The notes: a model not told the origin generated them from the sequence alone. A DNA stretch of 64,000 nucleotides from Fidelibacterota bacterium (GCA_016784605.1 JADHUI010000002.1:1-64000); one strand, 5' to 3'. Shown: positions 3,770 through 25,608, numbered from the stretch's first letter. Program-made: numbers and translations.

Positions 3770-6766
3770 TTACCACTCATCTTCGTCATCCCATTCGTCT
3801 TCATCATCATCGCTTTCTTCTTCTCCGAATTTGTATCCATTTTCATTGAAATAGTTTTTAACAATTCCTGAAATATCTTTTTGGCCTTTCATATCCCAAA
3901 TAAAGTCGCGAATACCTTCCAACATTGCTGTGGTATCTCCATCCAATGCTATTAGATGTTTCCCATAAATATCTGCGGCATAATCATCCTCAAATAAATC
4001 TGGTGTAGGGAGGAAGGGAGCTGGCATTTTAGTTCCGGGCATAATAACCATGGGATCATTTAGCCAATCCACAATCCAATCAGCACGAAGTCGATCTTTT
4101 GCCATGGCTAAATTAGGTGCCCAAGCTTGAGCTCCTTGAATTGGGAATGTCGCACCATAGAAATGGCAATTATTGCATGCGCCAAAATCTGCACTTGCTA
4201 GCTTTTCACCTGCTTTATATTTAGCATCAATAGATACGGAATGGTCTGTCTCATAAGCTAATAATTGATTATCAGAATATTGAAAAGATCGTATAATAGA
4301 ATTCCATTGATCATCTGTCATATTAAAGGAAGGCATCCGAACTTGCAAATTTGGACGAATAGTTGTGGGGCTATTAAAAAATTTGAACAACCAACTTGGT
4401 TGTGTTTTTCTACCTTGTGTATTCAAATTGGGTGGCGAAAGATCTGGCGGGCCAATTACATCGACAATTTGTCCACCAAAATCGTCAATAATATGACACC
4501 CTTGACAATTAAATTCTTTGATAAGTTTACGACCTTCATAAACCAATTCATCACTCACATATTGATCCGCAAGCATTTTAGTGCTTACTTCTTTTTCAGA
4601 GAAACTCAATATAGCTGTTACAAGTGCTTCAACTTCTATGTCACTGAAACCAAAGTTGGGCATTCTCAACTTATCTTCTGCAGGTGATTCTTTTCCATAA
4701 TCGAAGATTCTAGGGTTCTCGAGTTTCCGTTTAAACCAAGCATGATTCACGTGTTCAATATCATGGATATAGCCAAAATCGAGTTTATCAACAGGCTTAG
4801 ATCCTTCAAAAGTTAGTTCAGTACCAATTGGTTTTGCATCTTCATATCCAGGGATATTGTGGCATCCAAAACACCCATAATACCGGAAACTTTTATCAGC
4901 AACATAATCAATTTTTTCATCATGAGACATATTTGCTAATGAAGATTTTGCAAATGCTTCTGTATTCATTTTAGATAACCAACCAAAAGCAATTTTATCT
5001 AATTGATTTTTATCTAACTCAATATTTTCCATTGCTTCAAAGTCCGGATTTGTGAAGGACCTTAAGTAGGCGGTAATATCTTTAGCTTCTTGGTCAGATA
5101 ATCTCAAATCAGGCATGCGGGTGCCCGGCCAATATTCGCTCGGATTTTTAATCCAATTGTAAACCCATTCTGCAGATCCCTTTGATCCAAGTCCAATTAA
5201 GTTAGGCCCATGGTCTTTAAGAATAGACTCAATTGAAATGTCTTCAGAAATCATTTTTTCATCCGGTTCAACAATATGACACCCTCTACAACCAAGCGCA
5301 TTAAAAAGGTCTTCACCATTTACAGCATCTCCCATAAATAGATGATCATTTTTTGTGGATACTTCTTTACCATCAGGAAATAAATATTCTACCATGGCAA
5401 TAATTTCTGTGTCATTGCGTTTAGTCATTTCAGGGCTAGAATTATTATCTTGGCCAAAGAAGTGAGGCATACGTGTATTATGTCTAAATGATCTGGGTGC
5501 CTTTATCCATTTAGCGGTCCAGTTTTTATCTAGTTTTTCCGAGACTTTTGCCAAATCTGGGCCCGCTTTACGTCTTTCTTGATAGCGTTGAATCAAATGG
5601 CAGCCATTACACCCACTTTTTTCAATGAGAGATAATCCAAGGGTTAGTTGATCTGCATCATTGATATAAGCTTCTTTCTGGTGGCATTTAAAACAACTTG
5701 CTTCGGTGTAATTAGTGGGAAGCATTGGTTGTAACCAGTGATGCATTTGTTCCCAATCATATTCTTTTTCCCAACGAACTTTTTCTTCTTCCGAATTTGG
5801 CATATGAACTGCTGAGACAAATGATGTTCCTCGGGCTCGCCCAGAATGACATCCGGTACAACCAAAATCAGACATTGGATGGGGTGATGCTGAACTTAAA
5901 AAGGTATCTAAATTTGGGTGAGTCCGGTATGGTTGTGCTGCATCTACAAAATCCGGGTTTGTAATTCCTAAATGGCAACTTGTACAGCGGTCCACAGAAG
6001 GAACTTGAGTGAAATTCACATTATACTTGATGTCAGGAACCACAATTTGCTTCACTTTATAATATGGATTCATAAAGTCAAGAATAGGCAAATCTCGGAC
6101 TAAATCACCTACTTTATTCATGAAGGACATATGTTTTCTGTCAATTTTTTCTAACTTATTTTGTACAAGTTGAACATCAGCTAATACTTGATTCAAATCT
6201 TCGGTGGAAGCTTTAACGGCACGGTTCATTTCTTTAATGAGTAATTCAGTTTCATCAATGTCAGTTTCTGTAGCTTCTTTTTTTAATTTATAATCATGGA
6301 GCAATATATTTGCATTCTCAAATGTTTGTCTATTTTCAACAGAATGATCATCGCCATGAGTAACGCCGTGCGTATTATCTTTCTCCACTAAATATTTTAA
6401 AGCATCAATTTGTGATTTTTGACCTTGGTAATCCATATTATGTTTATAAAAAATACCTTTTAAAGTCACGAGTCGAGATTCTAAGGAATCTGCCAGATGT
6501 GTTTTTGAGTCTAAAATGTTTTGAGCATCCTGAGCTTTTTCTTCATATGAGACACGTTCAATTTTAACCGCTTCTAATTCTTCGGCTAATTCAGCTTCAG
6601 CCATTTGAATTTCAAGCTGTCTGAAATTGCGTTGATATACTTTGTATTCGTCGTCATTATCATCAAAAAACATCCATACAAATGAAGCCATAAATAAGAT
6701 GCTAGAAATGGCGAACCATTTATTTAGTTGATGAATATTCCAATATCTTTCGTCGTTTTTAAACAT
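3770..6766 (-). CDS. Membrane-anchored octaheme c-type cytochrome of a bc-type complex
   Basis: 998 aa; N-terminal TM and coiled coil; eight CXXCH motifs (CTSCH, CTGCH, CFKCH, CNGCH, CRGCH, CFGCH, CQGCH, CNNCH); strongly acidic C-terminus. Confidence 0.92.
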   Translation of the reverse strand: MFKNDERYWNIHQLNKWFAISSILFMASFVWMFFDDNDDEYKVYQRNFRQLEIQMAEAELAEELEAVKIERVSYEEKAQDAQNILDSKTHLADSLESRLVTLKGIFYKHNMDYQGQKSQIDALKYLVEKDNTHGVTHGDDHSVENRQTFENANILLHDYKLKKEATETDIDETELLIKEMNRAVKASTEDLNQVLADVQLVQNKLEKIDRKHMSFMNKVGDLVRDLPILDFMNPYYKVKQIVVPDIKYNVNFTQVPSVDRCTSCHLGITNPDFVDAAQPYRTHPNLDTFLSSASPHPMSDFGCTGCHSGRARGTSFVSAVHMPNSEEEKVRWEKEYDWEQMHHWLQPMLPTNYTEASCFKCHQKEAYINDADQLTLGLSLIEKSGCNGCHLIQRYQERRKAGPDLAKVSEKLDKNWTAKWIKAPRSFRHNTRMPHFFGQDNNSSPEMTKRNDTEIIAMVEYLFPDGKEVSTKNDHLFMGDAVNGEDLFNALGCRGCHIVEPDEKMISEDISIESILKDHGPNLIGLGSKGSAEWVYNWIKNPSEYWPGTRMPDLRLSDQEAKDITAYLRSFTNPDFEAMENIELDKNQLDKIAFGWLSKMNTEAFAKSSLANMSHDEKIDYVADKSFRYYGCFGCHNIPGYEDAKPIGTELTFEGSKPVDKLDFGYIHDIEHVNHAWFKRKLENPRIFDYGKESPAEDKLRMPNFGFSDIEVEALVTAILSFSEKEVSTKMLADQYVSDELVYEGRKLIKEFNCQGCHIIDDFGGQIVDVIGPPDLSPPNLNTQGRKTQPSWLFKFFNSPTTIRPNLQVRMPSFNMTDDQWNSIIRSFQYSDNQLLAYETDHSVSIDAKYKAGEKLASADFGACNNCHFYGATFPIQGAQAWAPNLAMAKDRLRADWIVDWLNDPMVIMPGTKMPAPFLPTPDLFEDDYAADIYGKHLIALDGDTTAMLEGIRDFIWDMKGQKDISGIVKNYFNENGYKFGEEESDDDEDEWDDEDEW

Positions 6767-15968: not shown

Positions 15969-17150
15969 TCATTTAAGTAGAAGCATTTTCTTTGTAATGG
16001 ACTTCTTTCCGATTTTGATAGAATAAAAATAGACACCTGAAGGTAAAGCATTTGCATCCCATTGAAAAGAATAAGAGCCGGGTTGCATATTTTGATTAAC
16101 CGGTTGATCAATCAACTGGCCGTTAATACCGTGAATTGAAATATGAACTAAACCGGCTTCTATTATTTCAAAAGAAATAGTTGTCTTAGGATTGAATGGG
16201 TTAGGATAATTCGATAAATAATTATGGGATATAACAAGCCCTTCTTCCAAACTTAAGTTATTCGCTAATTTTAAAGCCACGGGACGATGGTCAGAAATAG
16301 TTTCGTAATATTCATCGAATCCATCATTCATATATTCATCAATGGGAATTGTATAAATAGTTGAACTCGCATTTCCAAAACGATCAAAGAGTTCGTTTGT
16401 GATAAAGATGTGATCAATATGCGACGGCCAATAGGGATAGGACCATTCAGAACTTGTTCCATTTGCAATTTCAATATCGGCGAAAAGAAAATTCAAATCA
16501 TCATCAAGGATTATCTGAAAAACATTGTTTGACGACGGATCTGTAAGGATATCGTTTAAATCACCTAATACAATAACCTTTTCATCAGGCAGATTCAAGT
16601 CGATATACTCTTTTAATAATAGACTGGCATCATATCGGCGTGTTTCTTCATCCCATGGGTCAGACAGATTCATTGACCCATCGCCACAACATTTGAAATG
16701 ATTATTAATGATATAATGTTCCTGGTTTTGATAATTCATTTCCATCACCAAAGGCGAACGAGGAAAGGGGCGCCAATAAGGTTCTTCGATATAAATTTCA
16801 TAAATAGAGTCAATCTCAATCATATTTGTTTTATACACATAGGCTAAACCGCCAAACCAACTTGATTTAAAATAGTAATCATACCCATCTATGTTTTCAA
16901 TCATTTGTTTAAACATATTTGTATCACTTATTTCCTGGAGTGCATATAAATCAATATCAAGAGCTTCAATAATAGTTGAAACAGAGTCAACAGTTGATTG
17001 TCCATTTTTTGGAAACCATTCAATATTCCAAGTCATAATTTCCAATGTATTGTTTGTCCCAAAGGATAAATCGCTCAAATTTTGAGCATATAAGGTTGAA
17101 CAAAAAATAACAATTATAATGTAGTATTTACGCTTCATCTCTAATGCCAC
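15969..17150 (-). CDS. Secreted endonuclease/exonuclease/phosphatase family protein with C-terminal sorting domain
   Basis: MTWNIEWFP, ALQEI, VLGDLND, SDHRPVAL motifs; signal peptide; LSNYPNPFNPKTTISF...SGVYFYSIKIGKKSITKKMLLLK. Confidence 0.88.
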   Translation of the reverse strand: MALEMKRKYYIIIVIFCSTLYAQNLSDLSFGTNNTLEIMTWNIEWFPKNGQSTVDSVSTIIEALDIDLYALQEISDTNMFKQMIENIDGYDYYFKSSWFGGLAYVYKTNMIEIDSIYEIYIEEPYWRPFPRSPLVMEMNYQNQEHYIINNHFKCCGDGSMNLSDPWDEETRRYDASLLLKEYIDLNLPDEKVIVLGDLNDILTDPSSNNVFQIILDDDLNFLFADIEIANGTSSEWSYPYWPSHIDHIFITNELFDRFGNASSTIYTIPIDEYMNDGFDEYYETISDHRPVALKLANNLSLEEGLVISHNYLSNYPNPFNPKTTISFEIIEAGLVHISIHGINGQLIDQPVNQNMQPGSYSFQWDANALPSGVYFYSIKIGKKSITKKMLLLK

Positions 17151-17152
17151 TC

Positions 17153-20100
17153 TTATTGGATGTATTTAACTAATCCACCAAATTCGGGATCAATTTGGAA
17201 ACCCATCTTATAAAAGAATTTTTCATGGAAAAACCCAACGGTTGCATGAGTAATTCCACGGGCATTTAGACGATTAAAACATTCATCCATTAATTTGTGA
17301 CTTAAATTATTTTTTTGGAATGCTTTTTTAATCACGACCCATTCAATATGCACATGTTTAGACGATATATTTTTCCAAAAGACCCCACCGGCTAATTGGT
17401 TTTGTTTATCAAATATGAGTAAAAATTCATGATTAGCCTGGAAGAGTGCATTCAAATCTGCTTCCATTAAAGCAGAATGGAATTTGGCGATTTCTTTCGG
17501 TTTAAACGGAGGGCGAACGCGGTACAACTGATGATTCGAATCTTCTACTTGTACCACAAGATCTAATTTTTCCGTTTCACCCATCTCTAAGGATACAAGT
17601 TGAATATAATCTCCAGATTCAAGGTTTTTAAAGAGCATTTTTGCAAGGAAAAATTCTTCATCTTCTGTCAGTTTAATTTCATTTTTAATATATTGGATGC
17701 GTTGGGCAATGGACATGGGGTCCATTTTTTTATTACGAAGATTTTGTATGATTTCCTTAAAGGCTTCTATTAATTCTTTGGAAGAGTGTTTAAAACAAGA
17801 CATCATAAAAAAGCGCACACGTGTTTCGGGATAATCATCCATGAGCGTATCTAAATGATAATCTTGGTACAATTCTTCCAAAATAGAAGAACGCGCGCTT
17901 CGAGTTGCATCTGTATTAAGTTCAAGCCAACGCTCGTATCGAAGCGATGCAAAAACCACTGGTTTTGTTAAAACACCCATTTCTTTGGTTTCTGTAATAA
18001 ATTGTTGAATTCGATCTGCTGTACAATCCAATTCTTCAAAAGATTTTCGTATAGATTTTTTGTCCAAAGTACGAATTAGTTTTTCAAGCATGGGAATTCC
18101 TTGATTTACGGTAGCAACCCGTAGAGTACATGTGAATATAATTTCCCAATCAGCCATTCTTTTTAATCCGGGAAATTGATTTTCAGTTTCTAAGATAAAT
18201 TGATGAAAGAGTGTTAAATATAGAGTGGCGATTGAATCAACAGGCTCACGATCGGAAATAGATATTAATCGACGTCCGCGAGAATAATCGTGTTCAGGAA
18301 TGATTAAATTGCGTGGCGATGGATTTTTAATATTCAAAGTATAATTGGATCGACCCCAAAATTCTAAATACGTATAAATACCATTCCACATAAAATGGAG
18401 CCAACGCATTTGCCATCGATCTTCCGTACGCCTATTATGAATTTCATTTCGATTTCTTTCTAAATACTGAAATAACGTTTCACCTGGAATATATTCTTCG
18501 GTATAAACGTCAAATCCCGGCCAATATCCGCCAAAATCTTCAACAAGTTTATCATCTTTATATGCGGGCCCCATGAGAATCAACCATCGTGTTTCGTCTT
18601 CTAAAAAGGACCGATCCAATTGTTCATTCACGTTCATGACAAAATTATGAATCCCCAATGTTCGGGTTCGAACTAAAATTCTGAAAACACTTTTTCCATG
18701 CCGCGATCCTAAGTGTGTGACCCAAATTCCTTTTATGGGTATATCATCCAATTGAATCAAACAATGATTTGAAAAGATAAATAAAGCTTCTCGTAATAAT
18801 GTTGTTCCCATAAAAGCATGTAAAATATGTTCTTTATGTTTTTGGCGAACATTTTCATCAAAATCCAATACGTGTTCCCAAGAATATTCATGTCCCGTAT
18901 CTCGATCCACGGACAAGGTAGAAACAGGCCCTAGCCACGACCTAAAACCTTTGATTAAGGCAAAGTGTGACTTTTGAGCGGTAGATCGGATTTGGTTGGG
19001 TACTTTGGCGATTTGCCACCAGGATAATTCTGCCCTAGCCCAAGAAAATCCAGTTGGATGATGAATACCAAAATCAGAAACCATTAGCAATAATGTTTGG
19101 AGAAAACCGAGTCCAATAGAATCTAAATCATTCAGCTGACTTCGATAATGATTTAAAGAATGAATAATACTTTTATAATGGGGTTCCTTCATCCGTTTGG
19201 ATTGAATTGAAAATCCTGTAAAAGCATCTTGTTTTCGGAAGGCATAAAAGGCATCTTTCAATAATTCAAAAAACATATCACCCGATAATAATGGGAGAAG
19301 AACTTCAATCAACTCAATTTTAAAACGGGGGTTTGGATGTTTAAAAAATTGGATACATGTTTCTCGGATTAGTTGTTTCCATTGAGCATTTGACTGATCA
19401 ATTAATTCTCGTAATGGCTTGAAACATGTTTTATCCCCATGAATGTAGGCTTGAATCAAATAGTGGAATTCTTTTAATTGTGTCAATCCTTTGTCTAACG
19501 CATTATGCGGATATTCATTGTGCTCAAATAAAGATTGATTCGCAATAATGTGGATCCCTTGATAATGATCAAATTCTCTCAGTCTAAATAATAAATCACC
19601 ACAAAAGGAGACAAATGATTCATTTCCCAACCATAAGTGTGGACTTTTGATTATAGGTTGAAAATCAAAAAAGGAATCTTCAATTTCATAGCAATAATCC
19701 CCAATTTGAATACGATTCTCTTTCCAAAAAAAAGGTAAATCACCCTGTGTGGATTGAGTGGTAAGAAATTTTCCATCCCATGATATCGTAGTTCTGGGAA
19801 TGCCTAATTCGCGCAAAAACCAAACCGGTATCCTGATTTCATTATTTCCATGATACAGTTTAATATAATTTTTTTGATACATGGGTGAAATGATATCACC
19901 AAAGTTCTCGATTACTTTTTTTCGATTGAATGAATTTTTATTTGTTAACTCTCCTAGCTCTTTACTGAAATCTCTTTGAATTACAGCAAAATTAACAATG
20001 CGTTCAAAAGACGAAAGGAAACTGTTTACAGATAATATTAACGAACTAAAATATTGACGAATTTCATCTTGAGAAGCCTGCTCAAATTTAAAAATTGTAT

Positions 20101-21733
20101 TGGTTGTATCAGGGAAAATGAGAACGGTGTTGAATTCACGCCCATCGCCAACCAAAAATATTGATTTTATTGATTCAAAATCTTGGAACAAGTTTTCAAT
20201 TTTTTGGGGCGCAATCGTTTGCCCTCGACTGTTTTTATAAATATCTTTTTTTCGATCGACAATGAAATAATGTCCATTCCTTTCTTCAAAAATATCACCC
20301 GTATGAAACCAACCGCTTTTTAGTAAGGGTGTTTCATTTTCCCCGTAGTATCCAATAGATATATATTCACCACGCAAGAGAAGTTCATGATCCTCAGCTA
20401 ATTTCATTTCGATGCCTGGTAATGGTTTTCCAACAGAGTCCGGCGCATAATCGTTTGGAGGCGTCATGGATATACCGCCTGATGCTTCTGTCATTCCATA
20501 GCCACTCATTAAATGAATGCCGCGATTTTGGAAAAATGTGAAAATATCTGGGTCCAAATATCCAGCTCCAGCAAGACCCCATTTTAAATGTCCACCTGTG
20601 ATTTCTTTTAATAATTCTTGAATAGCTCCATCATCCAAATCACTCGCAGTCCTTTTGGATTCAATCATGTCATACATTTGAACCCATCTTTTTGGAATAC
20701 TGATAAAAACAGATGGTTTTGCAAGTCTAAATCCCTGGAGAATAGAATTAAATGCAGGCGATTCTGAAAATGTATAAGTGGCGCCCCAATAAATAGATCC
20801 CATTAATTCAAAAAAACGCCCAAATGTATGAAATAATGGTAAATAGCATAAAAACACATCTGTATTCCCAACATCAGGAAGAGCCAACGCTCGGGCAAAC
20901 CGTTTTGAAACCATATTAACGTGAGAAAAAGAAATCCCTTTCGGATAATCCGTTGTGCCAGACGTATATAATACTGTCACTGGATCATCAACGTTAATAT
21001 CATCAAATTGATCATAGGTGCGAATGGGTTCTGAACTATGGACTAAATCCAGAAATGATTCCCAATGGTATTTCGTTTGTATGAATTGATCTTTTTCAGA
21101 TATTGCAATAATATTAACAGATGAATGGTCTTGGTAAATGGCATTCCATTTTTGAGCAGCACTTTCACTGCTAATGAATAAATGTGTAATACCAGAATGA
21201 TTTAGCGTATAAGATAAATGGTTTTGAGTCAAATTTATTGGGAGAGGAACAACCGTTGTATGTGAAATAATGCACGCAAGATCCACAAGGGTAGTTTTAA
21301 CTTGATTTGGCGAGAAAATCCCTACAACAATTGGCTCCTGGGAAAGTGCCTGAATGGATTCACTTATATGGCAGATTTGGCTCCAAACTTGGGAATAAGA
21401 AAGAGAATGTAGTTCATCTTTTTCAATAAACTGTAATAAAGGTTTATTCCCATATTTTAATACCCTTTGGAGAAATAATTTCCCAAAATGAAACTGGCTT
21501 TTTCGAATCAGCTTAACGAGAAGTTTTAGCCATTGATCGCGAATAGTTTCCTCGGAAAAATGATTGGCAATCGTTGAATGATGGCATTGATCCAAGAAAT
21601 CATAAATATCCGAAGAAGAAACATCTTTATTTATGAGATCATTTGCCAAATCAATCAGATGCGAATTATTTTGACCCTTAATATTTGATTGGTTGAATAA
21701 TTTCGAAATTCGGTCTTTCATGAGTAATTCCAT
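17153..21733 (-). CDS. Giant fusion: acyl-CoA synthetase (AMP-binding) + large uncharacterised region + C-terminal GNAT
   Basis: YTSGTTDYPKGISFSH, GYGMTEASGG, WFHTGDIFEERNGHYFIVDRKKDIYKNSRGQTIAP; C-terminus GGVFWKN...HIEWVVIKKAFQKNNLSHKLMDECFNRL...FFYKMGF. Confidence 0.85.
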   Translation of the reverse strand: MELLMKDRISKLFNQSNIKGQNNSHLIDLANDLINKDVSSSDIYDFLDQCHHSTIANHFSEETIRDQWLKLLVKLIRKSQFHFGKLFLQRVLKYGNKPLLQFIEKDELHSLSYSQVWSQICHISESIQALSQEPIVVGIFSPNQVKTTLVDLACIISHTTVVPLPINLTQNHLSYTLNHSGITHLFISSESAAQKWNAIYQDHSSVNIIAISEKDQFIQTKYHWESFLDLVHSSEPIRTYDQFDDINVDDPVTVLYTSGTTDYPKGISFSHVNMVSKRFARALALPDVGNTDVFLCYLPLFHTFGRFFELMGSIYWGATYTFSESPAFNSILQGFRLAKPSVFISIPKRWVQMYDMIESKRTASDLDDGAIQELLKEITGGHLKWGLAGAGYLDPDIFTFFQNRGIHLMSGYGMTEASGGISMTPPNDYAPDSVGKPLPGIEMKLAEDHELLLRGEYISIGYYGENETPLLKSGWFHTGDIFEERNGHYFIVDRKKDIYKNSRGQTIAPQKIENLFQDFESIKSIFLVGDGREFNTVLIFPDTTNTIFKFEQASQDEIRQYFSSLILSVNSFLSSFERIVNFAVIQRDFSKELGELTNKNSFNRKKVIENFGDIISPMYQKNYIKLYHGNNEIRIPVWFLRELGIPRTTISWDGKFLTTQSTQGDLPFFWKENRIQIGDYCYEIEDSFFDFQPIIKSPHLWLGNESFVSFCGDLLFRLREFDHYQGIHIIANQSLFEHNEYPHNALDKGLTQLKEFHYLIQAYIHGDKTCFKPLRELIDQSNAQWKQLIRETCIQFFKHPNPRFKIELIEVLLPLLSGDMFFELLKDAFYAFRKQDAFTGFSIQSKRMKEPHYKSIIHSLNHYRSQLNDLDSIGLGFLQTLLLMVSDFGIHHPTGFSWARAELSWWQIAKVPNQIRSTAQKSHFALIKGFRSWLGPVSTLSVDRDTGHEYSWEHVLDFDENVRQKHKEHILHAFMGTTLLREALFIFSNHCLIQLDDIPIKGIWVTHLGSRHGKSVFRILVRTRTLGIHNFVMNVNEQLDRSFLEDETRWLILMGPAYKDDKLVEDFGGYWPGFDVYTEEYIPGETLFQYLERNRNEIHNRRTEDRWQMRWLHFMWNGIYTYLEFWGRSNYTLNIKNPSPRNLIIPEHDYSRGRRLISISDREPVDSIATLYLTLFHQFILETENQFPGLKRMADWEIIFTCTLRVATVNQGIPMLEKLIRTLDKKSIRKSFEELDCTADRIQQFITETKEMGVLTKPVVFASLRYERWLELNTDATRSARSSILEELYQDYHLDTLMDDYPETRVRFFMMSCFKHSSKELIEAFKEIIQNLRNKKMDPMSIAQRIQYIKNEIKLTEDEEFFLAKMLFKNLESGDYIQLVSLEMGETEKLDLVVQVEDSNHQLYRVRPPFKPKEIAKFHSALMEADLNALFQANHEFLLIFDKQNQLAGGVFWKNISSKHVHIEWVVIKKAFQKNNLSHKLMDECFNRLNARGITHATVGFFHEKFFYKMGFQIDPEFGGLVKYIQ

Positions 21734-21913: not shown

Positions 21914-23542
21914 ATGTCTGAGATCAATCAACTCAAGCAACGAATTTCCCATTTACAGGGAAGAATTGCCCATTTAAATGAAATCGGGGTTGCTCTATCT
22001 TCTGAAAAGAATACGGATAAACTTTTTGAAATGATTCTAGATGCAGGACAAAAAATTACAAATGCCGACGGTCGCACTCTTTACATGAAGAATAAAGATG
22101 GTAATTTAGATTTTAAAATATTATTAAATGAATCTATGAAAACACATGTAGGAGGTACATCAGGTGTTGAAATACCTTTCTATCCGGTCAAATTATGGCT
22201 TGACGAACATACACCCAATCATAGTAATGTTTCCGCCTATGTGGCATTAACAGGAAAAACGGTCCACATTGACGATGCTTATAAAGAAGAAGGATTTGAT
22301 TTCTCAGGAACAAAAGGATTTGATCAGAAAACTGGATTTCACTCAAAATCATTTTTAACTGTTCCATTGAAAAATCATGAAGATGATATTATTGGCGTCA
22401 TGCAACTTATCAATGCCAGAGATAAAGATGGGAATGTCATTACCTTTTCAGACGAAATGCAGGATCAGGTTGAATCCATCGCTTCTCAAGGGGCTGTTGC
22501 TTTAACAAATAAAAAACTTGTGGAAGAATTAAAAACTTTATTTGAAGCATTTATTAAATTGATTGCTGTCGCCATTGATAAAAAATCACCTTATACAGGC
22601 GGACATTGTGAAAGAGTTCCAATTATTACAATGATGCTTGCTGACGCTGTAGAAAAAACAGATTACGGGAAGTATAAAGATTTTTCTATGAATGACGATG
22701 AACGATATGAATTATATATAGCTGCTTGGTTGCACGATTGTGGAAAAGTTGCCACACCGCCACATGTTGTGGATAAAGGAACAAAACTTGAAACGATTTA
22801 TGATCGAATTGGTCTCATCAATACACGGTTTGAAGTTTTACGCAGAGACGCGAAGATTGCTTATTTAGAAGAAAGAGCCGGATTGCATGAGGCTTCTCAA
22901 GACATTGTAGAAAAGATTGAAACGGATTATCAAACTCGATTAAAACAAATTGATGAGGATCAAGCTTTCCTTCAACATGTAAACCATGGTGGCGAATTCA
23001 TGGAAAAAGATCTTCAAGATAGAGTTGTGAATATTTCAAAATATCCCTATACCATTAACGGGGTTGAAAAACCTTTCCTTAGTAAGGAAGAAGTCGAAAA
23101 TTTAAATATTCCAAAGGGAACACTTACGGACGAGGAACGCACCATTATAAATGATCATATTGTCATTACGATTGATATGCTTGAAAAATTACCTTATCCA
23201 AAACAATTGAAAAATGTACCAGAATTCGCTGGTGGACATCATGAGAAAATGGATGGAACAGGTTATCCAAAAGGGCTAAAAGGGGATCAAATGTCTCCCC
23301 AAGCTAAAATGATGGCCATTGCAGATATTTATGAAGCATTAACGGCAGCGGATCGTCCATATAAAGATGGGAAAAAAATATCTCAAGCCATGCGCATCAT
23401 GGGGTATATGAAAAATGATTACCATATCGATCCTGATTTATTTGAAATTTTCGTTAAAGAGGGTATCTATAAAAAATATGCAGGGGATTATGTAGATAAT
23501 ATTCAAATAGATCTGGTTGAAGAAGATTTGATTATTTCCTAA
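21914..23542 (+). CDS. GAF-domain HD-GYP phosphodiesterase-like protein
   Basis: N-terminal GAF; AWLHDCGKVATPPHV and GGHHEKMDGTGYPKGLKGDQM, ADIYEALTAADRPYK. Confidence 0.92.
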   Translation: MSEINQLKQRISHLQGRIAHLNEIGVALSSEKNTDKLFEMILDAGQKITNADGRTLYMKNKDGNLDFKILLNESMKTHVGGTSGVEIPFYPVKLWLDEHTPNHSNVSAYVALTGKTVHIDDAYKEEGFDFSGTKGFDQKTGFHSKSFLTVPLKNHEDDIIGVMQLINARDKDGNVITFSDEMQDQVESIASQGAVALTNKKLVEELKTLFEAFIKLIAVAIDKKSPYTGGHCERVPIITMMLADAVEKTDYGKYKDFSMNDDERYELYIAAWLHDCGKVATPPHVVDKGTKLETIYDRIGLINTRFEVLRRDAKIAYLEERAGLHEASQDIVEKIETDYQTRLKQIDEDQAFLQHVNHGGEFMEKDLQDRVVNISKYPYTINGVEKPFLSKEEVENLNIPKGTLTDEERTIINDHIVITIDMLEKLPYPKQLKNVPEFAGGHHEKMDGTGYPKGLKGDQMSPQAKMMAIADIYEALTAADRPYKDGKKISQAMRIMGYMKNDYHIDPDLFEIFVKEGIYKKYAGDYVDNIQIDLVEEDLIIS

Positions 23543-23809
23543 ATGAAAAAGAAATCTATCATTTCAATGTCTCGGAATGAGTTAAAGGTATACATTGAAG
23601 AAATCCAAAATGAAATACAAATCCAACTGTCAGAAGGAAAAAATATAGATGATTTTCTCGATACAACCGATTTATTGGATGAATTTGAAACAATCCTTCT
23701 AGATGAAGAATTCAGTATATTTGTCATTACCATTTTACATAATATTCAAAAAGAAGGGGTTATGAATTCTATCCTGGATGCGATAGGATTGTCACTCAAT
23801 AAATTATGA
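23543..23809 (+). CDS. Hypothetical small acidic protein
   Basis: 88 aa, abuts the HD-GYP stop and overlaps the next ATG. Confidence 0.65.
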   Translation: MKKKSIISMSRNELKVYIEEIQNEIQIQLSEGKNIDDFLDTTDLLDEFETILLDEEFSIFVITILHNIQKEGVMNSILDAIGLSLNKL

Positions 23810-25608
23810 CACTTGAAATAGGCATTGTATTATTTTTGCTTGTGGGGACGTTTACTTTATTCGTCACCGAAGTATTCCAAATTGAAGTCACAGCTTTATT
23901 GACTTTATCGGCAATACTTATATTGGGGTATATTTCACCCATTGAAGCCATTGAAGGGTTTTCTAACCCAGCTGTGATTGTTATTGGCTGTTTATTTATA
24001 TTAAGTCATGCATTACAGAAATCGGGAGTGTTGGAATATTTTGTTGTAAAAATAAATAAATTGGTTTCTCGATCTCTCTCACTTGGGTTGACCGTCTATC
24101 TTCTCTCTATCGCTTTAGCCTCAGCTGTTGTCAATAATACAGCCATTGTTGCTATTTTTATGCCTGTAACAATTCGAATCGCCGGGCGATATAAATTGAG
24201 TCCATCAAAAGTACTTATTCCTTTGAGTTATGCCGCCATTTTCGGTGGCACACTCACATTAGTGGGTACATCAACAAATTTATTGGTAAATGCAATCTAT
24301 ACAGCTTCAGGGAATCATGAACCAATGGGTATGTTTGAATTCGCCAAATTTGGTTGGATAAACCTTGTTGTTGGCCTTGCATATTTAGCATGGATTGCCC
24401 CCAAATTACTCCCATCTAGAACAGTAACATCAAGCTTAACAAAAAATTACCATTTAGGTGGATATTTAACTGAAATGATGGTTGTTGAAGGGTCTCCCAT
24501 GATTGGAAAAACTTGTCTCCAACGGGGAATAAATCAAAACTATGATGTGATGGTTTTGGATATTCAAAGAGATAAGCGATTGATTACAACTAATATTAGA
24601 GATACAGAACTTCAGGCAGGTGATATTCTTTTTGTAAGAGGATCGTTAGATGACTTTTTACGTATGAAAGAAGTGGAAAATATCAATTTATTAACGGATG
24701 AAAAGTTGACTCAGAACGAACTTGAACAAGATGATAATATATTGATTGAATGTATTTTAACCGACCGCTCAGATCTCGTTGGCAGAAGTTTAATGGAATT
24801 GAATTTCCGCAGAAAGTTTGGGACTTTTGTTCTCGCCATTCGCCGAGAAGGTTCTTTAATTAGAAAAAAAATAGCTCATCTGGTTTTACGATCATTTGAT
24901 GCATTATTGGTATATGGACCCAAAGATAAAATTCATGAAATGGGGAAGAAAGGTGATTTTATTGTTTTAGAAGAATACGATACTTCTCTTCTGAAAAAGA
25001 AAAATTGGTGGGTTGCAACGGCGGTAATATTATTGGTTGTATCTTTAGCCGCACTCGGTATGGTGCCCATTCTTAAAGGCGCCATTTTGGGCGTTGTCTT
25101 TTTATTTGCTTTTAGAATTATAACTCCAAATGAAGCTTATCAAGCAATTCATTGGCAAGTGATCGTCATGATTGCCGCACTCATTCCATTGGGAAAAGTA
25201 ATTCAAACAACAGGAACGGCCGATTGGATTGGGAATTCCATTATTTCATTTGTCCACAATGTTCCAAGTGATTATCAGCCAGTATTGTTGCTTGCATTAG
25301 TATATTTAATTACAGTTATTTTAACAGAAGTTTCATCCAATGCAGCTACTGCCATAATCATGGCGCCAATTGCTATAGCCATAACGACCCAATTAGGTTT
25401 GGATGCTAGACCCTATATTTTTGCCGTATCCTTTGCGGCTTCCGCATCGTTTATTACACCGATTGGATATCAAACCAATTTGATGGTGTATGGTCCTGGA
25501 GGGTATAAGTTTTCTGACTATTTGCGAGTAGGCTTTCCGTTAGCCATAACATTTTGGATTTTGGCTACATGGATCATTCCAAAAATATGGCCACTTACTT
25601 CATTGTAA
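23806..25608 (+). CDS. SLC13/DASS-type permease with TrkA-C domain
   Basis: Two hydrophobic halves flanking soluble TrkA_C-like region; SNAATAIIMAPIAIA and NTAIVAIFMPVTIR motifs. Confidence 0.88.
   Translation: MTLEIGIVLFLLVGTFTLFVTEVFQIEVTALLTLSAILILGYISPIEAIEGFSNPAVIVIGCLFILSHALQKSGVLEYFVVKINKLVSRSLSLGLTVYLLSIALASAVVNNTAIVAIFMPVTIRIAGRYKLSPSKVLIPLSYAAIFGGTLTLVGTSTNLLVNAIYTASGNHEPMGMFEFAKFGWINLVVGLAYLAWIAPKLLPSRTVTSSLTKNYHLGGYLTEMMVVEGSPMIGKTCLQRGINQNYDVMVLDIQRDKRLITTNIRDTELQAGDILFVRGSLDDFLRMKEVENINLLTDEKLTQNELEQDDNILIECILTDRSDLVGRSLMELNFRRKFGTFVLAIRREGSLIRKKIAHLVLRSFDALLVYGPKDKIHEMGKKGDFIVLEEYDTSLLKKKNWWVATAVILLVVSLAALGMVPILKGAILGVVFLFAFRIITPNEAYQAIHWQVIVMIAALIPLGKVIQTTGTADWIGNSIISFVHNVPSDYQPVLLLALVYLITVILTEVSSNAATAIIMAPIAIAITTQLGLDARPYIFAVSFAASASFITPIGYQTNLMVYGPGGYKFSDYLRVGFPLAITFWILATWIIPKIWPLTSL

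Follow-up and report, generated by a model that had tools for sequence, protein, structure and literature searches.

A predicted fusion of an AMP-forming acyl-CoA ligase and a GNAT domain around a solenoid and a kinase-like region in Neomarinimicrobiota and further phyla

The window analyzed here, a stretch of 64,000 nucleotides from a marine Fidelibacterota bacterium (GCA_016784605.1 JADHUI010000002.1:1-64000), is part of a 2.17-Mb draft genome and encodes on its minus strand (17153..21733, ATG start) a protein of 1526 amino acids (aa). An AMP-forming ligase domain of the ANL superfamily (residues 86-622) and a C-terminal GNAT domain (residues 1400-1526) are joined in this protein by a middle part which is blank in Pfam (residues 623-1392), the order of parts being ANL - beta - HEAT-like - kinase-like - helical - GNAT. 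This is a new domain architecture built of known kinds of part, and no description of it or of its mechanism was found in the literature searched. As a tentative reading, which we favor with some reserve, the single chain would activate an acyl group with its ligase domain and transfer it with its GNAT domain, the middle part acting as a recognition or regulatory body. This reading is supported by the architecture, by the conservation of the fusion as one unit and by the conservation of the ligase motifs.

An earlier examination of the sequence (the original prediction) had described an acyl-CoA synthetase fused to a large unknown domain and a GNAT acyltransferase. Its reading frame of 1526 aa at 17153-21733 was confirmed and lies on the minus strand, which had not been mentioned; the plus strand across the same positions is full of stops. 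Ligase and GNAT on one chain were likewise recovered by Pfam and NCBIfam. The parts of the gene, all on the minus strand, are as follows.

17153..21733, minus strand: whole gene, 1526 aa (reading frame and homologues)
20294..21478, minus strand: ANL large (N) subdomain, residues 86-480 (Pfam AMP-binding at residues 90-463, 1.9e-52)
20936..20968, minus strand: A3 P-loop YTSGTTDYPKG, residues 256-266 (core near-invariant, 78 members)
20474..20506, minus strand: A5 motif SGYGMTEASGG, residues 410-420 (near-invariant)
20192..20257, minus strand: A8/hinge motif DRKKDIYKNSRGQTIAPQKIEN, residues 493-514 (near-invariant)
19868..20293, minus strand: ANL C-terminal subdomain of the AMP-binding_C_3 type, residues 481-622 (Pfam match at residues 502-621, 6.7e-12)
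19922..19951, minus strand: A10 motif ELTNKNSFNR, residues 595-604 (Lys599 invariant, Ser/Thr at 601)
19568..19867, minus strand: small beta-rich region, residues 623-722 (strands in a low-confidence model; conserved P.W and GN)
18854..19567, minus strand: alpha-solenoid, HEAT-like, residues 723-960 (weak HEAT matches, armadillo profile matches, model)
18029..18811, minus strand: kinase-like region, probably a pseudokinase, residues 975-1235 (motif order, APH profile score)
18455..18508, minus strand: hinge-like VYTEEYIPGETLFQYLER, residues 1076-1093 (motif inspection)
18284..18328, minus strand: catalytic-loop-like KNPSPRNLIIPEHDY, residues 1136-1150 (Asn at the catalytic Asp position)
17558..18016, minus strand: conserved helical linker, residues 1240-1392, with K.v.FA..Ry.RWl.lN..At (family alignment)
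17156..17536, minus strand: GNAT domain, residues 1400-1526 (Pfam Acetyltransf_10 at residues 1408-1513, 1.1e-8; profile match to GCN5 structures)
17300..17317, minus strand: GNAT motif A, the CoA pyrophosphate loop, QKNNLS, residues 1473-1478 (departs from the consensus R/QxxGxG/A)

The ligase part is the most conserved of the fusion (48-56% mean pairwise identity), with a maximum of 56% in the C-terminal subdomain and with 62 of the 395 columns of the large subdomain showing a family-wide conservation of 97% or more. Motifs A3, A5, A7 and A8, which together with the AMP-binding domain mark an ANL member, are near-invariant. Among solved structures, those nearest by profile belong to luciferase-like ligases and to the A-domains of carboxylic acid reductases (CAR). 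In the A10 motif, the column which usually holds the catalytic lysine is Ser/Thr in every fusion member and Lys599, two residues upstream, is invariant; stand-alone paralogues of the same genome carry the Lys in the usual column (EVTPTLKVKR, ELTPTFKIKR). Among 21 stand-alone ligases examined as a control (a 22nd was misaligned and set aside), the usual column holds Lys in 17 and the remaining four show the Lys-x-Ser register of the fusion. By these alignments the register shift is not unique to the fusion family, and a loss of the A10 catalytic lysine as a sign of inactivity or novelty was dropped, since four of 21 ordinary ligases share the register. The A10 lysine was found to be fully conserved throughout the superfamily in a published analysis (PMC6122825). 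Because every fusion member scored (80/80) keeps exactly one Lys across the two A10 positions, as all 21 controls do, the ligase domain is probably active. The adenylation site, whose inactivity would speak against the original prediction, is thus not obviously dead. Ordinary stand-alone long-chain ligases, as seen in loci L187, L188, L190 and L191, show the two registers T/S-x-K and K-x-S, with a single Lys in each of the 21 checked; motif tables in the literature give one fully conserved lysine.

The fusion is not accidental: it was detected by a search with the middle region in 87 of 245 Neomarinimicrobiota genomes (26 of 84 genera), is nearly always a single chain of about 1500-1600 residues and occurs in further phyla. 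Among the genomes listed, the streamlined ones of family f9 (0.4-1.0 Mb) had no middle-region match. The alignment comprises 74 members from inside the phylum, the window copy included; the middle region alone has homologues there at 24-88% identity, and the two nearest named relatives are metagenome-assembled genomes of Candidatus Neomarinimicrobiota whose best segments are 86% and 73% identical. Matches lying clear of contig ends have frames of about 1490-1630 aa, except for one copy (G072:C18:27228-29949) which is broken by in-frame stops, through either gene decay or misassembly. That the entire middle also exists in split or stand-alone form was considered and rejected; the short frames found resemble contig-edge fragments, apart from the copy with in-frame stops.

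Outside the phylum, a profile built on the last 900 residues of the fusion detected homologues in all five genomes examined of a first small phylum (G309, G392-G395; contig ends truncate some of them), in two of seven of a second (G342, G401), in one of two of a third (G348) and in two of four of a fourth (G250; G446 partial). A profile centered on the kinase-like region added G637, a 5.0-Mb genome in one contig, and G475. As these two appear in none of the enumerated phyla, we infer a distribution of the family over at least six phyla, counting Neomarinimicrobiota. Other members lie in drafts that are 90-100% complete. The order of parts in the homologues outside the phylum is identical. In addition, distance matrices were calculated separately for six segments (ligase, beta, solenoid, kinase-like, linker, GNAT). 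The correlations among them are r 0.89-0.94, which would be expected of parts that are inherited and work together, and one ancient fusion transmitted as a unit would be the simplest reading of these comparisons. No relatives of the fusion protein were found in a plasmid collection (searched in protein mode) or in viral contigs.

The middle part had been described as one large domain of no recognized family. The lack of a family holds: nothing credible was found at residues 622-1400 of the window protein in Pfam, NCBIfam or PHROGs, nor in the middle region of 37 family members scanned with Pfam, and no known family with a trivial role was matched. Matches of the fusion protein to NB-ARC, DUF87, DpnI_C and MgtE_N were dropped, being under the curated cut-offs and inconsistent among members. 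The single domain, in turn, has to be replaced by at least four segments, namely a small beta region, a HEAT-like solenoid, a kinase-like region and a helical linker. In the low-confidence model of the middle, strands dominate the first 100 residues and helices the 240 that follow. Over the solenoid, distant members give weak, sub-threshold HEAT_2/HEAT_EZ matches, and the family profile matches designed armadillo/helical-repeat proteins with E-values from 4e-6 upwards, which may merely reflect repetitive helices. With 23% identity, the solenoid is the least conserved segment after the N-terminus.

For residues 975-1235, the assignment of a kinase fold is suggestive. Both strings pointed out in the original prediction fall into this region, VYTEEYIPGETLFQYLER at residues 1076-1093 and NLIIPEHDY at residues 1142-1150. 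A TEEYIPGETL-type hinge is present in many members, there is a loop of the D-P-x-P-x-N type or its remnant, and four loci (L119 and L125-L127, from one outside phylum) possess glycine-rich loops such as LGEGKGRSVF plus a VLK motif. Neither Pfam nor PDB searches gave a significant match for the region, and a fold search with its model (pLDDT, the predicted local distance difference test, of 44) found nothing. By hhalign, the kinase-like segment was compared with a profile of 29 APH-family kinases at four settings with 40 column shuffles each. It scored 14.7-19.1 depending on the members used, with means of 10.6-11.9 for the shuffled columns and 10.8-14.4 for other segments of the fusion; shuffles equalled or beat it in 0, 0, 2 and 0 of 40 cases (nominal P 0.035-0.16), and it lies above the null in three of the four settings. 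The kinase-like feel of the middle, noted earlier, thereby receives weak independent support. If the fold is that of a kinase, the window copy would be a pseudokinase, because it has neither a VAIK Lys nor a DFG Asp and shows an Asn at the catalytic Asp position. Two proteins of 1390-1410 aa from another phylum (L123:6837-11066 and L167:1429-5598, both on the minus strand) share the kinase-like region and give no ligase or GNAT match; that of L123 (1410 aa) retains NDVNPYN and NDIGN. Proteins of this type may represent a link to an active kinase.

The GNAT domain is present in every complete copy examined. Its fold was recognized with the family profile, which matches GCN5 structures at 9e-9, and its mean identity across the family is 43%, the helical linker and the GNAT domain together ranging from 40 to 43%.

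The surroundings of the gene vary by clade. In the order to which the window belongs, it converges on cytochrome-oxidase assembly genes (38-42 loci per cluster), which in the window are CtaA, SCO, a UbiA-type CtaB and DUF420; the identities in this cluster were deduced from position and from the Pfam matches of the window. Divergently oriented to it are the genes of a GAF-HD protein, in 41 loci, and of a transporter of the citrate/sulfate type, in 40. In the window these lie at 21914-25608 on the plus strand as a GAF-HD protein, a small reading frame and a CitMHS/TrkA_C transporter, the two large genes being kept in about 40 loci. In families f30 and f31, glutamate dehydrogenase and citrate synthase are among the neighbors. 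In the lineage of G250, a cluster for pyruvate dehydrogenase E1-beta/E2/E3 and a lipoyl ligase is located a few kb from the fusion gene (L120:613-5035, plus strand). By inspection of the loci, a drift of the neighbors towards central carbon metabolism was noted. In the phylum of G309, a second, stand-alone AMP-ligase gene follows closely downstream on the same strand (L119:11793-13505, plus strand; likewise in L125, L126 and L127). Directly after the stop codon of the fusion gene in the window, a gene on the minus strand (15969-17150) starts which encodes a secreted-looking endonuclease/exonuclease/phosphatase protein with a Por-type C-terminal sorting domain. Further away, a 998-aa protein rich in CxxCH (3770-6766, minus strand) adjoins cytochrome b-like and Rieske-like reading frames; this region is likely to encode a multi-heme electron-transfer complex.

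In the mechanism which we tentatively favor, the ANL domain, similar to long-chain acyl-CoA synthetases (LACS) and CAR, would bind ATP together with a carboxylic acid, which is probably a fatty acid or another acyl acid, and convert the acid via acyl-AMP into acyl-CoA; Lys599 would serve as A10 lysine, in the alternative register. The C-terminal GNAT would then take the CoA thioester and pass the acyl group to an amine, the most likely acceptor being a protein. The recognition or regulatory body, binding the acceptor and/or a nucleotide, would be formed by the HEAT-like solenoid together with the kinase-like module, the latter devoid of the residues for phosphoryl transfer. Several observations weigh against this sequence of events. 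CoA binding by the GNAT of the window copy seems doubtful, because its motif A reads QKNNLS and fails the consensus R/QxxGxG/A. The first glycine of the motif is missing in 44 of 80 tallied members, which sits oddly with a functional acyl-CoA transferase. The AlphaFold models were unusable (mean pLDDT of 43 for the middle and of 44 for the kinase-like region modeled with three sequences). Moreover, the conserved neighbors sit on the opposite strand and vary by clade, no acceptor or partner being evident among them. From the activation plus transfer suggested in the original prediction, both domains are present, but the CoA loop of the GNAT is eroded in the lineage of the window, where many members of the order have N, H, A or D for the first glycine. 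The strict form R/QxxGxG/A occurs in few scored members and RxxGxS in 23; RxxGxG, RxxGxS or a near form is found in the majority of outside lineages as well as in families f30 and f31, and the 73%-identical relative of the window copy keeps RKQGLS.

Such erosion could mean that in the lineage of the window the protein is a long-chain acyl-CoA ligase with a big scaffolding tail, whose GNAT and kinase-like folds are no longer catalytic. The loss of the kinase-like catalytic residues and the 23% identity of the solenoid would fit with this, but we regard it as unlikely: the genome already holds ordinary stand-alone ligases, and the GNAT domain and the linker are under selection, because they are 40-43% identical with eight and six columns, respectively, at least 97% conserved. 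Equally unlikely in our view is a sensor-type acetyltransferase, in which the ligase would mainly sense acyl-CoA or acyl-AMP and control a GNAT that acetylates enzymes of central metabolism, as in Pat/PatZ. The central-carbon neighbors in several lineages (glutamate dehydrogenase and citrate synthase, pyruvate dehydrogenase and lipoyl ligase) point in this direction; however, these neighborhoods vary by clade and were compared by inspection, the ligase is better conserved than the GNAT with motifs that look catalytic, and in the order of the window it is the GNAT loop which is degraded.

Acetylation of the A10 lysine in AMP-forming ligases by GNATs has precedent (PMC8388817; PMC4053389), and the fused GNAT might modify the A10 Lys of its own chain in this way and switch the ligase off, as an in-cis version of the control of Acs by Pat. 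The invariant Lys599 and the constant presence of ligase and GNAT on one chain are in line with such self-regulation, yet Lys599 stays in many members with a degraded CoA loop, as expected of any active ligase, and we judge this idea quite improbable. Least probable by far is an active kinase in the middle, which would couple phosphorylation to acyl transfer. The glycine-rich loop and VLK lysine in L119 and L125-L127, PGDLSPMN in L120 and the motifs of the related L123 protein, which has neither ligase nor GNAT, would argue for it. In contrast, a DFG-type Asp is absent from every fused member examined, the VAIK Lys is missing in most, the window copy has Asn for the catalytic Asp, and there is no match to a kinase family.

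Each part of the fusion has its counterpart in known systems. Adenylation domain, type of C-terminal domain and motifs A3-A8 are common to AMP-forming ligases of the LACS/CAR type (ANL; PF00501 + PF23562), whereas the fusion carries about 900 further residues and its A10 Lys in the less common register. With APH-like kinases (PF01636) it shares the glycine loop, hinge and catalytic-loop remnants in the same order, but it has no significant family match and has lost most of the catalytic residues. Activation and acyl transfer within one polypeptide are also found in the acyl-[ACP]--phospholipid O-acyltransferase fusions (PRK08633/PRK06814). These use a PlsC-type O-acyltransferase, whereas here a GNAT is the transferase and the order and the middle differ; their models match the ligase part of our fusion only.

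A chain of so many parts that has stayed whole in at least six phyla must have a specific role. Bacterial GNAT acetyltransferases have been grouped into five domain types, two of them with a dead NDP-forming synthetase domain which is thought to sense (PMC8556138), and in the parts of this source available to us none of the five shows an AMP-forming ligase or the architecture of the fusion. Somewhat more speculatively than the mechanism itself, the fusion could constitute a further class of GNATs, in which an AMP-forming ligase supplies the donor in cis and pseudokinase and solenoid pick the target, possibly among enzymes of central metabolism, in at least six phyla. The closest comparison is with Pat/PatZ (type I/II GNATs), where a large domain of the acyl-CoA-synthetase type is likewise joined to a GNAT. 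According to the same source, the synthetase domain of Pat is NDP-forming and catalytically dead, whereas that of the fusion is AMP-forming with intact motifs and is accompanied by the solenoid and the kinase-like part. The fusion may therefore work like an activation-plus-transfer enzyme, yet it does not belong to the Pat/PatZ class. Were its ligase to feed the GNAT, the protein would be a self-supplying acylation machine that is not restricted to acetyl-CoA; if the ligase senses acyl-CoA instead, the Pat design would have been invented independently with the other kind of ligase.

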